NCBI GenBank assembly: GCA_947632715.1
Contig: CANRQF010000005.1
Location: 1 to 42,388, forward strand
From: an uncultured Bacilli bacterium
GTDB taxonomy: Bacteria > Bacillota_I > Bacilli_A > RF39 > UBA660
Reading direction: 5' to 3'
DNA: 42,388 nt
In this document: in pieces, positions 1,732 to 7,355 of the stretch
How the letters are laid out: the number at the start of each line of letters is the position of its first letter
How positions within the stretch are numbered: the stretch's first letter is position 1
Notes under the pieces: model-generated
Seen by the model: the letters and a program-made list of their open reading frames with translations, nothing else
What the model was told of the DNA's origin: nothing
Databases searched by the model: none
Position numbers and translations under genes: made by a program

Positions 1732-1764
1732 AGATATGCTAAAATATTGTTTAGGAGGCTTTTT

Positions 1765-4401
1765 ATGGCAAAAAAATATGTTTATTTATTTAGCGAAGGA
1801 AACAAAGACATGCGTGAACTCCTTGGTGGTAAAGGTGCTAACTTAGCCGAAATGACTAATTTAGGATTGCCAATTCCTCAAGGTTTTACAGTTACTACTG
1901 AAGCATGTACAGATTACTATAATAATGGTAAGGTTATTCGTGAAGAAATTATTGATGAAATCCTTGAAGCTTTGAAAAAACTTGAAGGTATGGAAGGAAA
2001 AACATTTGGTGATGAAAATGTTCCTTTACTAGTATCAGTAAGAAGTGGTGCAAGAGCTAGTATGCCAGGTATGATGGATACTATTCTTAACTTAGGTCTT
2101 AATGATAAATCAGTTGAAGGTTTTGCAAAGAGTACAAATAATCCAAGGTTTGCTTATGATTCTTATAGAAGATTTATTCAAATGTACTCAGATGTAGTTA
2201 TGGAAGTTAATAAATCTTTCTTTGAAAAGATTATTGATGAATTAAAACATGAAAAAGGTATTACATATGATACAGAAATGACTACAGAAGATTTAAAAGA
2301 ATTAGTTAAAAGATTCAAAAAAGTATATAGTGATCATATGAATGGGGAAGAATTCCCACAAGATGTTAAAGAACAATTAATGGGAGCAGTTAAAGCTGTA
2401 TTCCGTTCATGGGATAATCCAAGAGCTATTGTATATCGAAGAATGAATGATATTCCAGGCGATTGGGGAACTGCCGTAAATATTCAAGCAATGGTATTTG
2501 GTAATATGGGTGAAACATCTGGAACAGGTGTTGCATTTACAAGAAATCCTGCTACTGGTGAAAAAGGTATTTATGGTGAATATTTAATTAATGCTCAAGG
2601 TGAAGATGTAGTTGCAGGTGTTAGAACTCCTCAACCTATAACTCAACTTGAAAAAGATTTACCTGATTGTTATAAACAATTTATGGAACTTGCTCAAAAA
2701 TTAGAAGACCATTATCGTGATATGCAAGATATGGAATTTACTATTGAAAATGGTAAATTATACTTCTTACAAACAAGAAATGGTAAGAGAACTGCTCATG
2801 CTGCAATTAAAATTGCTTGTGATTTAGTTGATGAAGGCATGATTACTCCGGAAGAAGCTGTTTTAAGAATTGAAGCTAAGAGCTTAGATCAATTACTACA
2901 TCCAACATTTGATAATGATGCTTTAAAGAAAGCTGAAGTTATTGGAGAAGGACTTCCTGCATCTCCAGGTGCTGCTGCTGGTAAAGTAGTATTTACTGCT
3001 GAAGATGCTAAATGCCAAGGTAAAGGTGGCAATGGTGAAAGAGTTGTATTAGTTAGACTTGAAACTACACCAGAAGATATTGAAGGTATGGTAGCAAGTC
3101 AAGGTATTCTTACTGTAAGAGGTGGAAGAACTAGTCATGCTGCTGTTGTTGCTCGTGGTATGGGAACTTGTTGTGTAGCTGGATGTGGCGCAATTAAAAT
3201 AGATGAAGAAAAGAAAGAATTTGAACTTGGCGGATATACATTCCATGAAGGTGACTATATTTCTATTGATGGAAATACTGGTAAAATTTATAAAGGCGAT
3301 GTAGAAACTAAAGAAGCATCAATTTCTGGTGACTTTGGTAGAATAATGGATTGGGCAGATAAATATCGTAAACTAAGAGTTAGAACTAATGCTGATAATC
3401 CAAGAGATACTAAGAAAGCTGTTGAGTTAGGTGCAGAAGGAATTGGTTTATGTCGTACTGAACACATGTTCTTTGAAGAAGAAAGAATACCTAAAATTAG
3501 AAAAATGATTTTAGCTGATACAGTAGAAGAAAGAGAAAAAGCTTTAAATGAATTAATACCATTCCAAAAAGGTGACTTTAAAGCAATGTATAAGGAATTA
3601 AAAGGTCTACCTATGACAGTACGTTATTTAGACCCACCTCTACATGAATTCTTACCTAATACTGATGAAGAAATTGAAGAATTAGCTAAAGATATGGGTG
3701 TATCTGTACAAAAGATTAAAGATAAATGTAGTGAACTTCATGAATTTAACCCAATGATGGGTCATAGAGGTTGTCGTTTAGCAGTTACTTATCCAGAAAT
3801 TGCTAAGATGCAAACTCGTGCTTTAATGGAAGCTGCTATTGAAGTTAAAGAAGAAGATGGATATGATATAGTTCCTGAAATCATGATTCCATTAGTTGGT
3901 GAAGTTAAAGAGCTTAAATTTGTTAAAGATGTAGTTATTGAAACTGCTGAAGAAGTTAAGAAAGAAAAAGGTAGCGATATGGAATATCATATTGGTACTA
4001 TGATTGAAATTCCAAGAGCAGCATTAACTGCAGATAAAATTGCTGAAGAAGCTGAATTCTTCTCATTTGGAACTAATGACTTAACACAAATGACATTTGG
4101 TTTCTCAAGAGATGATGCTGGTAAATTCTTAGATGCTTATTATCAAAATAAGATATATGAAATTGACCCATTTGCTAAACTTGATCAAACTGGTGTTGGG
4201 GCATTAATTAAAATGGCTGCTGAAAAAGGTAGAGCAACTCGTCCAAATATCAAACTTGGTATTTGTGGTGAACATGGTGGTGAACCAAGTAGTGTAGAAT
4301 TCTGTCATAAAGTTGGTTTGAATTATGTATCTTGTTCTCCATATAGAGTACCTATTGCGAGACTTGCTGCTGCACAAGCTGCATTAAATGATAAAGAATA
4401 A
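1765..4401 (+). CDS. ppdK: pyruvate, phosphate dikinase
   Basis: MAKKYVYLFSEGNKDMRELLGGKGANLAEM; GGRTSHAAVVARGMG phospho-His motif; start at 1765 preceded by TTAGGAGG. Confidence 0.96.
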   Translation: MAKKYVYLFSEGNKDMRELLGGKGANLAEMTNLGLPIPQGFTVTTEACTDYYNNGKVIREEIIDEILEALKKLEGMEGKTFGDENVPLLVSVRSGARASMPGMMDTILNLGLNDKSVEGFAKSTNNPRFAYDSYRRFIQMYSDVVMEVNKSFFEKIIDELKHEKGITYDTEMTTEDLKELVKRFKKVYSDHMNGEEFPQDVKEQLMGAVKAVFRSWDNPRAIVYRRMNDIPGDWGTAVNIQAMVFGNMGETSGTGVAFTRNPATGEKGIYGEYLINAQGEDVVAGVRTPQPITQLEKDLPDCYKQFMELAQKLEDHYRDMQDMEFTIENGKLYFLQTRNGKRTAHAAIKIACDLVDEGMITPEEAVLRIEAKSLDQLLHPTFDNDALKKAEVIGEGLPASPGAAAGKVVFTAEDAKCQGKGGNGERVVLVRLETTPEDIEGMVASQGILTVRGGRTSHAAVVARGMGTCCVAGCGAIKIDEEKKEFELGGYTFHEGDYISIDGNTGKIYKGDVETKEASISGDFGRIMDWADKYRKLRVRTNADNPRDTKKAVELGAEGIGLCRTEHMFFEEERIPKIRKMILADTVEEREKALNELIPFQKGDFKAMYKELKGLPMTVRYLDPPLHEFLPNTDEEIEELAKDMGVSVQKIKDKCSELHEFNPMMGHRGCRLAVTYPEIAKMQTRALMEAAIEVKEEDGYDIVPEIMIPLVGEVKELKFVKDVVIETAEEVKKEKGSDMEYHIGTMIEIPRAALTADKIAEEAEFFSFGTNDLTQMTFGFSRDDAGKFLDAYYQNKIYEIDPFAKLDQTGVGALIKMAAEKGRATRPNIKLGICGEHGGEPSSVEFCHKVGLNYVSCSPYRVPIARLAAAQAALNDKE

Positions 4402-4583: not shown

Positions 4584-5600
4584 ATGATTAAAAATTTTAC
4601 TACAAATACTTTAAGACCTATGATGAAAATTTCTGAAATGGTTCCATATTTAAAACAAAAAAATATTAAATTTGAAAAAATGACGGATGTTGAAGCAGAA
4701 AATTATTTGAGATACAACAATAATTATTATAATGTGACAGCATATAAGCATAATTTTGAAAGATATTTCATTGATGGAAAATTTGTTGATAAATTTATAG
4801 ATTTAGATTTTGCCTATTTAAAAGATTTATCTATTATTGATTATAGAACTAGATTAATTTTATTTAAAATGATTATTGATATTGAACATTATTTAAAAAT
4901 AAGAATTTTAAATTTAATAGAAGATATTTATAAAGAAGATGGCTATAGAATAGTTAATATGTATTTAGAAAAGGACTTTAATGATGAAAAATTTCCTAAA
5001 AAAGTACATAATGGTATATTAAAAAAAGTCGGAAGTGAATATTATCATAAAGTATTTTCCAAATATGATATTGATAAAGATACAAAATTAGAAAATATTC
5101 CAGTTTGGGAATTTCTAGAGATAATAACATTTGGTGATTTAGTTAATTTTTATGAGTTTTTTGCTAAAGAATATAAGTTGAAAAATGAAATTAAAAATGT
5201 TTTTATTTTAAGAGAAATTGTAAAATTAAGAAACGCGGTTGCTCATAATTCGTGTGTTCTATGTGATCTTGATAAAAAAGATAATAATTTCACTCCTGAT
5301 TTTAAAATAGTAAATTATTTAAATAATTGTGGTATAGGAAAGAAAACAAGAGATAACAAATTAGGTAATTCAAGAATAAGGCAAATAACTTATACGCTTT
5401 ATATGTTTAATAAAATTGTTACTAGTACAGGTGTTAGGCTAAATGTCACTACAGATATAAATAATTTGTTTTATAAGCGAATACTTTTACATAAAGAATA
5501 CTATAATAATAATGAACTATTAAAATCAATATATGGCTATTTTGATAAGATAATAAAAAAACATTATAGTATAAATATTGAAGAAAATAGTTTGACATAA
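4584..5600 (+). CDS. Abi-like (Abi_2/AbiD-AbiF family) HEPN-domain protein, putative abortive-infection RNase/toxin
   Basis: Family-typical segments: DYRTRLILFKMIIDIEHYLKIRI; VWEFLEIITFGDLVNFY; IVKLRNAVAHNS, a HEPN R-x4-H motif; SD AAGAAGGTGAT. Confidence 0.85.
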   Translation: MIKNFTTNTLRPMMKISEMVPYLKQKNIKFEKMTDVEAENYLRYNNNYYNVTAYKHNFERYFIDGKFVDKFIDLDFAYLKDLSIIDYRTRLILFKMIIDIEHYLKIRILNLIEDIYKEDGYRIVNMYLEKDFNDEKFPKKVHNGILKKVGSEYYHKVFSKYDIDKDTKLENIPVWEFLEIITFGDLVNFYEFFAKEYKLKNEIKNVFILREIVKLRNAVAHNSCVLCDLDKKDNNFTPDFKIVNYLNNCGIGKKTRDNKLGNSRIRQITYTLYMFNKIVTSTGVRLNVTTDINNLFYKRILLHKEYYNNNELLKSIYGYFDKIIKKHYSINIEENSLT

Positions 5601-5624: not shown

Positions 5625-5688
5625 ATGCAAGGAAAAAGTGTTTACACTTTTGCATGGGCACTGTCTTAATTGATGGAGCCCTATTTTT
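5625..5688 (+). ncRNA. putative Abi-associated small structured RNA (candidate RNA antitoxin / AbiF-type RNA)
   Basis: Hairpin 1: ATGC/GCAT plus AAAAGTG-TTTA-CACTTTT (5625-5655) with a 5-nt AAGGA bulge; hairpin 2: GGGC-A-CTGTC-TTAATT-GATGG-A-GCCC (5656-5681) followed by TATTTTT; promoter just upstream. Confidence 0.65.
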
Positions 5689-5745
5689 CTGCAATAAATT
5701 CTTAGTTTTATATATTTTATAGCAATCTTATTCATCCCAAATGAA

Positions 5746-6088: not shown

Positions 6089-6150
6089 AAAAATATGGTA
6101 TATTTAAAAACGAGTAGTGCCTAGGAAACTTTTGAAGCCCTAGGTCATTT
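6089..6150 (+). promoter_or_regulatory. extended -10 element followed by a terminator-like hairpin (possible orphan short transcript, or the end of the NUDIX remnant unit)
   Basis: AAAAATATGGTATATTT (6089-6105), identical to the antitoxin promoter core at 6217-6233; then GCCTAGG...CCTAGGT hairpin and ATTTTTA. Confidence 0.4.
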
Positions 6151-6203
6151 TTATATATAGAATGATTAAAATAATAAAATTAGAATATAATAATTATATA
6201 TCA

Positions 6204-6232
6204 TTTACATTTTCATAAAAATATGGTATATT
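6204..6232 (+). promoter_or_regulatory. promoter of the type III antitoxin RNA
   Basis: TTTACA (6204-6209), 17-nt spacer, TGG-TATATT (6227-6232). Confidence 0.75.
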
Positions 6233-6256
6233 TTTGTTACACAGAAATGTGTTGTA

Positions 6257-6356
6257 AATGTTTCTCGCTTCCGGGTGGCTAGCGAGTAATAAATAATCCC
6301 GGTCGGCAATGTTTCTCGCTTCCGGGTGGCTAGCGAGTAATAAATAATCCCGGTCG
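6257..6356 (+). repeat. two tandem identical 49-nt repeats (51-nt period), each folding as an H-type pseudoknot
   Basis: AATGTTTCTCGCTTCCGGGTGGCTAGCGAGTAATAAATAATCCCGGTCG at 6257-6305 and 6308-6356; stem CTCGCT/AGCGAG, loop CCGGG pairs with downstream CCCGG. Confidence 0.9.
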
Positions 6357-6368
6357 AAAATGGAGAAT

Positions 6369-6398
6369 AACTTCATCAATATGATGGAGTTTTCTTTT
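6369..6398 (+). terminator. terminator between antitoxin repeats and toxin gene
   Basis: AACTTCATC-AATAT-GATGGAGTT + TTTCTTTT. Confidence 0.8.
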
Positions 6399-6432
6399 GC
6401 TTTATGTTATACTTTTTATGGAGTTGATGACA

Positions 6433-6900
6433 ATGAAAATAAAAACTGGTTATTTATATCACATCAAAGATAAATATTTTGATGTCGTTAATGATGAAAA
6501 TTTAATGCGAAATCATGAAAGAGGTAAAAAAAGACCTACATATTTTACAATTAAAGATAAGAATATATTATGGTTTATACCAATTAGTTCTAAAGTAGAT
6601 AAATATAAAAAAATTGTAAATAAAAAGATAGATAAATATGGTTTTTGCAACACAATACTTATTGAAGAAATATTTAATGAAGATTCTGCTATTTTATTGC
6701 AAAATGCTTTTCCAACTTTAGAAAAATACATTGATCATGTACATACTATAGATGGAAAACCTGCTAGAGTTCCAGAAAAATTAGAAAAAATAATACTTAA
6801 AAATTTTAAATATTTAATGAAACTTCATAATAAAGGAATTAAAATTTTTTTAACTGATATAGATATACTAAAAGAAAAAATGTTAAATGAAACAAAGTAA
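6433..6900 (+). CDS. type III toxin-antitoxin endoribonuclease toxin (ToxN/CptN/TenpN-like)
   Basis: 155-aa protein MKIKTGYLYHIKDKYFDVV...RPTYFTIKDKNILWFIPISSKVDKYKKI...; small basic protein in canonical position after the pseudoknot repeats and terminator. Confidence 0.8.
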   Translation: MKIKTGYLYHIKDKYFDVVNDENLMRNHERGKKRPTYFTIKDKNILWFIPISSKVDKYKKIVNKKIDKYGFCNTILIEEIFNEDSAILLQNAFPTLEKYIDHVHTIDGKPARVPEKLEKIILKNFKYLMKLHNKGIKIFLTDIDILKEKMLNETK

Positions 6901-6929: not shown

Positions 6930-7241
6930 ATGAAAGAAAAAATAAAAACAGAATTTGATAAAAATATGAGTAAAATACTTTATTTACAATTAGCATTTGA
7001 AGATTATTGTGATCATAGTGAAAACGAACCAGAATTATATATTAAAATTAATAAAAAAACTAAACAATTGCGTGAACAAAAAAACAAATTGGATGAAGAT
7101 ACAAAAATTAAAATATCTTTGGATATTTTAGAACAATATGAAGAATTGTTAAAAATTGTAGGGAAAGAAAACTTTATATTTTACAAAGATGGAAGTATTG
7201 AATATAAATGGGATGATAATCAAAATATAACTGATAAATGA
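6930..7241 (+). CDS. hypothetical small charged protein downstream of the toxin
   Basis: 103-aa ORF, 29 nt after the toxin stop; ends inside a relic of the antitoxin repeat. Confidence 0.5.
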   Translation: MKEKIKTEFDKNMSKILYLQLAFEDYCDHSENEPELYIKINKKTKQLREQKNKLDEDTKIKISLDILEQYEELLKIVGKENFIFYKDGSIEYKWDDNQNITDK

Positions 7242-7355
7242 TCCTGGTTAAAAATGGAGAATAACTTCATCAGTATGATGGAGTTTTCTTTTGCTTTATG
7301 ATATACTTTTTAATGAATAGATGAAAGTAGAATACCATTGGTTATTTTCAGTAAA
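7234..7355 (+). repeat. decayed direct copy of antitoxin 3' end, terminator and toxin start (source about 6340-6470)
   Basis: ATAAATGATCCTGGTTAAAAATGGAGAATAACTTCATCAGTATGATGGAGTTTTCTTTTGCTTTATGATATACTTTTT matches 6340-6416 with few changes; the following toxin start is degraded. Confidence 0.85.

Follow-up and report, generated by a model that had tools for sequence, protein, structure and literature searches.

The window, by which we mean the whole 42,388-nt stretch of DNA analysed here, contains two tandem cptI repeats followed by the small open reading frame cptN. This intact locus is surrounded by two hairpin elements, an Abi_2 family gene, a second open reading frame and the remnant of another cptI array. 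The features are as follows.

1747-4401: ppdK, upstream in the window
4584-5600: Abi_2 family protein gene (Pfam PF07751, E=7.9e-25; PADLOC AbiD, E=1.8e-18)
5625-5695: hairpin element (GGGCACTGTCTTAATTGATGGAGCCCTATTTTTCTG) after the Abi_2 gene
6089-6160: conserved promoter with a hairpin RNA-like element of ~45 nt (GAGTAGTGCCTAGGAAACTTTTGAAGCCCTAGGTCATTTTT)
6204-6232, + strand: promoter-like site from a consensus scan, TTTACA-17-TATATT with TG before the -10
6257-6307, + strand: cptI repeat 1, 51 nt (RNA model match E=1.6e-16; covariation)
6264-6268(9) with (6281)6282-6286, + strand: predicted stem S1 of repeat 1, CTCGC(T) with (A)GCGAG
6271-6275 with 6298-6302, + strand: predicted stem S2 of repeat 1, CCGGG with CCCGG; the stems recur at +51 in repeat 2
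6287-6297, + strand: A-rich loop of repeat 1 (UAAUAAAUAAU)
6308-6358, + strand: cptI repeat 2, 51 nt (RNA model match E=1.3e-17)
6359-6363, + strand: partial unit AAUGG after repeat 2, read from the sequence, where AAUG appears again
6369-6391, + strand: intrinsic terminator T1 between cptI and cptN, hairpin with T-run
6433-6900, + strand: cptN, 155-aa ORF from ATG with GGAG before the start; active-site equivalents S52, S53 and K54
6930-7241, + strand: ORF2, 103 aa, stop codon inside the array remnant
7234-7324, + strand: remnant of a second cptI array; what is left of its lost repeat is the A-rich loop with the 3' arm of S2 (ATAAATGATCCTGG), and a terminator copy is also present
7263-7285, + strand: terminator T2 within the remnant

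The two units (6257-6307 and 6308-6358) follow each other with a 51-nt period, share their first 49 nt and differ solely at unit positions 50-51 (GC/AA), so the period and the identity given in the preliminary description are verified. The array they form (6257-6358) is the top tandem repeat of the window, with a TRF score of 200 against 76 for the runner-up. It is also GC-rich in AT-rich DNA, as had been claimed, with 49% G+C versus 25% for the window, a value reached by 0.035% of 102-nt windows. The proposed order of promoter, repeats, terminator and ORF is likewise found, at 6204-6232, 6257-6358, 6369-6391 and 6433-6900, respectively. Terminator T1 folds much better than its shuffles (z=-3.5). 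The promoter match is not significant alone (22 promoter-type matches found versus 17.8 expected in region shuffles), and constitutes weak evidence by itself since such sites are common by chance in AT-rich DNA. In addition, the region 6170-6242 is 75-85% identical to sequence upstream of the arrays in many relatives. Rfam gave only chance matches below the cut-off over the array. The folding energy of a single unit modelled without a pseudoknot is unremarkable (z=-0.22), which tells nothing about the repeat because a pseudoknot lies outside that model.

Downstream of cptN, the remnant is 89% identical to 6339-6429 and probably supplies the terminator of a cptN-ORF2 transcript. Neither Pfam nor NCBIfam nor PADLOC assigns ORF2 to a family. 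Fragments of ORF2 adjoin cptI promoters in the related sequences L035 and L057; in L057 a full array of promoter, repeats and terminator comes after the fragment, an arrangement that indicates what the window probably lost at 7234-7324. As judged from its sequence, the window shows array turnover, with an intact locus next to what is left of a second array.

Upstream, the Abi_2 gene sits ~0.6-0.7 kb from the cptI array. Two genes of the abortive-infection type, both RNA-linked, are thereby placed within 2 kb, flanked by ppdK and an RNHCP-domain gene. The element GAGTAGTGCCTAGGAAACTTTTGAAGCCCTAGGTCATTTTT is solitary in the window, just 5' of the cptIN promoter. It occurs again at L035:640-710 and L068:1130-1205, directly 5' of Abi_2 genes in both, and further in L021, L030, L006, L014 and L004. 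This hairpin element has no match in Rfam, and we regard it as a candidate AbiF-type (AbiR-like) RNA antitoxin. The element GGGCACTGTCTTAATTGATGGAGCCCTATTTTTCTG recurs beside the solo cptI array of L095 (G027).

The toxin protein

The NCBIfam equivalog model for CptIN (NF047359.1) scores the ORF at 6433-6900 with 155 bits (E=1.3e-45), above its curated cut-off of 90. A phmmer search against solved structures retrieves Eubacterium rectale CptN (4RMO) with E=6.6e-21 over residues 4-147, nearly the full length. Moreover, an AlphaFold model built from 23 relatives (mean pLDDT 88) places 4RMO first in the fold search (E=8.7e-12, TM 0.85) and AbiQ second (TM 0.76), followed by MazF/CcdB, MazF giving a TM of 0.58-0.61 depending on target length. 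The comparison with the ToxN/MazF-like fold suggested earlier for the 155-aa protein is thus positive, with 4RMO, AbiQ and MazF all matched by the model. Pfam and PADLOC yielded no match for this ORF, which we attribute to a gap in those libraries and do not count against CptN.

By sequence and model together, the ORF is CptN and its family membership is secure. The preliminary description had left the subfamily unassigned, whereas the curated HMM, the 4RMO match and the fold allow assignment to CptIN; of its two suggestions, CptIN-like or a divergent family, the first stands and the second is unneeded. The 51-nt unit, longer than the 36-nt ToxI and the 45-nt E. rectale CptI, might point to ToxIN, TenpIN or a fourth type III family, but the score far above the equivalog cut-off and the best match to CptN by both sequence and structure, with AbiQ of the ToxIN family clearly second, leave such an assignment scarcely credible. 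ToxIN membership was considered separately and rejected, AbiQ falling below CptN in the fold search and the unit having 51 nt.

The catalytic residues of E. rectale CptN are Ser51-Ser52-Arg53 (PMC4627078). Ser52-Ser53-Lys54 occupy these positions in the window protein, in which S85 is also present, and S52 and K54 are near invariant among relatives. The protein has the fold of a MazF/Kid-type enzyme by sequence and model, and would act as an endoribonuclease. Of two adenine-recognising residues of E. rectale CptN, Tyr104 gives way to His104, with histidine at this position in 63 of the 70 sequences aligned, and Asp81 to Asn82. These two exchanges suggest that base recognition may differ from that of E. 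rectale CptN.

The fold of the repeat unit

Covariation was assessed in 155 repeat units from relatives, 92 of them distinct. In a pair scan of the distinct units without preset structure, four of the five S2 pairs rank first and the S1 pairs next. Across these units 94.8% of S2 cells are paired, compared with a mean of 77.4% and a maximum of 80.0% in shuffles; 110 cells are changed on both sides, and two-sided compensatory changes occur in all five pairs. S1 is paired in 93.3% of cells, with two-sided changes in three of five pairs, and its outermost pair (unit 8-30) is frequently unpaired. A second count with 26 diverse units gives 93.5% pairing and 41 double changes, a score attained by 0 of 500 shuffles, while pairing drops to 27-49% in every slid register. 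In several loci, repeats 1 and 2 carry unlike S2 stems, each self-complementary; L026, for example, has CTGGA/TCCAG in one repeat and CCAGG/CCTGG in the other. In addition, all 92 distinct units have A at unit positions 33, 35 and 36, and U34 never varies in the 26-sequence set.

On the strength of this covariation, each unit is an H-type pseudoknot composed of S1, a short L1, S2 and a long A-rich L2. The H-type pseudoknot proposed earlier through CCGGG/CCCGG pairing is therefore borne out by the S2 data. The proposed stem CTCGCT/AGCGAG is retained in its position and in five S1 pairs, but not in its sixth pair. This U-A pair (U13-A25 of the unit) was tried and rejected: among the 37 units that have no gap in the partner column, 22 pair, a level not above shuffles, and the pair lacks support beyond close relatives. 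With their mixed-stem arrays, the loci amount to a large natural data set on covariation in a pseudoknot antitoxin.

Distribution and toxin-free arrays

Screening 85,462 species genomes gave 80 loci (83 matches), mainly in uncultured Bacilli MAGs, many of which bear 'Lapin' (rabbit) isolate names. Nearly all loci with enough upstream sequence have 48-52 nt repeats before the toxin. Toxin-linked arrays consist of two repeats in 67/70 cases, with 1, 3 and 4 repeats in one case each. At L041:2501-3835, two complete CptIN loci with unlike repeats stand in tandem, their toxins being 70% and 66% identical to that of the window. Within the family of the window, 24/117 genomes contain a CptN match, 21 of these above the model cut-off. 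The phage collection contained no match to the window toxin, and plasmids gave distant toxin matches only (30-37% identity), although CptIN is known for plasmid stabilisation. CptIN has been characterised experimentally in three Firmicutes. The window locus is a new member of the family from an uncultured gut Bacilli clade, distinguished by a unit of greater length and by the UGG conserved where the stems join. CptIN is a recurrent element in these small-genome gut Bacilli, and the system appears common in the lineage.

A covariance model of the unit was run over the 117 genomes of the window's family, and the array positions were compared with the CptN matches. Most arrays lacking an intact cptN were read directly, and solo arrays were checked for contig-end artefacts. 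Among 42 arrays, 21 have an open cptN just 3' (one cut by a contig end), five have a broken or shortened cptN, 14 have no cptN, and two at contig ends stay unassigned (G075:C53 and G093:C93). Arrays without an intact cptN include L030, L034, L057, L060, L062, L090, L094, L097, L100, L102, L105, L111 and L120-L125. In L121 the first 12 cptN codons are fused to its last codons, an internal deletion, and the L113 array lies directly behind ppdK, a gene that is also upstream in the window. The toxin-free arrays comprise a promoter, 1-4 pseudoknot repeats and a terminator. Their pseudoknots are intact in 22/25 solo repeats versus 78/81 linked ones, with no clear difference (p=0.14). A second toxin partner 3' of the solo arrays was looked for and none was seen, the genes read there being unrelated and varying by array.

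On the simplest reading, loss of the toxin precedes loss of the antitoxin, in keeping with the logic of addiction. The 14 arrays without cptN, the five with a broken one and the remnant inside the window would also suit a window locus that is itself decaying or silenced, a relic heading toward a solo array. We consider this improbable, because cptN is full length with an open frame and no internal stop, its active-site residues are kept, the two repeats are undamaged and match each other, and the promoter and terminator positions are conserved. A working system is the preferred reading of the locus itself. For the toxin-free arrays we offer a tentative and rather unlikely proposal: they may be kept as RNA 'anti-addiction' modules against CptN on other elements, the window representing one stage of turnover and mixed repeats widening the range that is neutralised. 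Neutralisation by CptI is highly selective, so that the mixed and toxin-free arrays make the retention of the antitoxin after the toxin a testable question, namely whether antitoxin RNA persists after toxin loss because it is still protective.

Proposed mechanism and comparison with known systems

We conclude that the locus is very probably a chromosomal type III toxin-antitoxin system of the CptIN family that works as set out below. The preliminary assignment to a type III locus with pseudoknot repeats agrees with the CptN identity and the stem covariation. A single promoter at ~6204-6232 would drive both CptI repeats, and most transcripts would end at the hairpin 6369-6391. Read-through would yield little cptN mRNA, so the antitoxin would be in excess. 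CptN would then cut the precursor at the A-rich unit junctions, most probably at A^AUG, to release single 51-nt RNAs. The predicted pseudoknots, in which S1 and S2 have 5 bp each, L1 has 1-2 bases and the long loop is A-rich, would not leave CptN but form a closed, inactive complex with it, probably with the 2:2 stoichiometry of E. rectale. If the antitoxin supply dropped, through loss of the locus or a stop in host transcription, free CptN would cut cellular RNA and growth would arrest.

The cleavage site is placed by analogy. In E. rectale the scissile A45 precedes AAG (PMC4627078). AAUG occurs at the start of unit 1, at the boundary of units 1 and 2, and after unit 2, and A^AUG would be the equivalent of A45 in the window. 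By comparison with E. rectale CptI (...GUUGA|AAG..., PMC4627078), the partial unit AAUGG at 6359-6363 would provide the last predicted site.

The terminator between the repeats and the ORF limits read-through, as expected if the repeats were a cis-regulatory leader of the ORF, resembling an attenuator or riboswitch, and not a trans-acting antitoxin. We judge this very improbable: repeat number, pseudoknot and toxin identity fit CptIN, in which one repeat of E. rectale CptI neutralises in trans (PMC4627078), and solo arrays with intact pseudoknots persist apart from toxin genes. With a trans-acting antitoxin, the locus most likely serves its own maintenance. It may also act in phage defence; to our knowledge no tested CptIN has been shown to do so. 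Self-maintenance is the safer reading since E. rectale CptIN stabilised plasmids and stopped none of >200 coliphages (PMC4627078).

The closest known system is E. rectale CptIN (4RMO; PMC4627078), whose toxin is homologous end to end and has the Ser-Ser-basic active site. In both systems two tandem repeats lie 5' of the toxin with a terminator between. We took the 45-nt E. rectale CptI repeat from the primer table of PMC4627078 and aligned it to the 51-nt unit. Both are H-type pseudoknots with a 5-bp S1, a very short L1 (1-2 bases here) and AUAAAU in the A-rich L2. The AUAAAU loop core of the window unit aligns with A29-U34 of E. rectale and has sequence counterparts of A29 and the kink nucleotide U30, so that an extended A-minor twist like that of E. 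rectale CptI may form; the E. rectale mutants A29U and delta-U30 lose antitoxicity (PMC4627078). The E. rectale unit differs in its length of 45 nt versus 51 nt here, its 5' leader of 6 nt versus 7, its A-rich loop of 9 nt versus 11, and its S2 5'/S1 3' junction of ~3 nt (UAU) versus 4-6 nt with a near-invariant UGG here. Its toxin has Arg53, Tyr104 and Asp81 where the window protein has Lys54, His104 and Asn82.

ToxIN of P. atrosepticum and B. thuringiensis and AbiQ share the type III architecture and the MazF/Kid-like fold (AbiQ TM 0.76), but have 34-36 nt repeats in 2.8-5.5 copies, form a heterohexamer in solved ToxIN complexes (PMC5086642), and are 16% identical in sequence to the window toxin. 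The type II toxins MazF, Kid and CcdB have the same core fold (MazF TM 0.58-0.61), whereas their antitoxins are proteins and a pseudoknot RNA array is absent. Finally, the RNA-regulated HEPN toxins AbiF/RCd22 (PMC12373285) resemble CptIN in having an RNA antitoxin array 5' of the toxin, while their toxin family and RNA are unrelated to those of CptIN.
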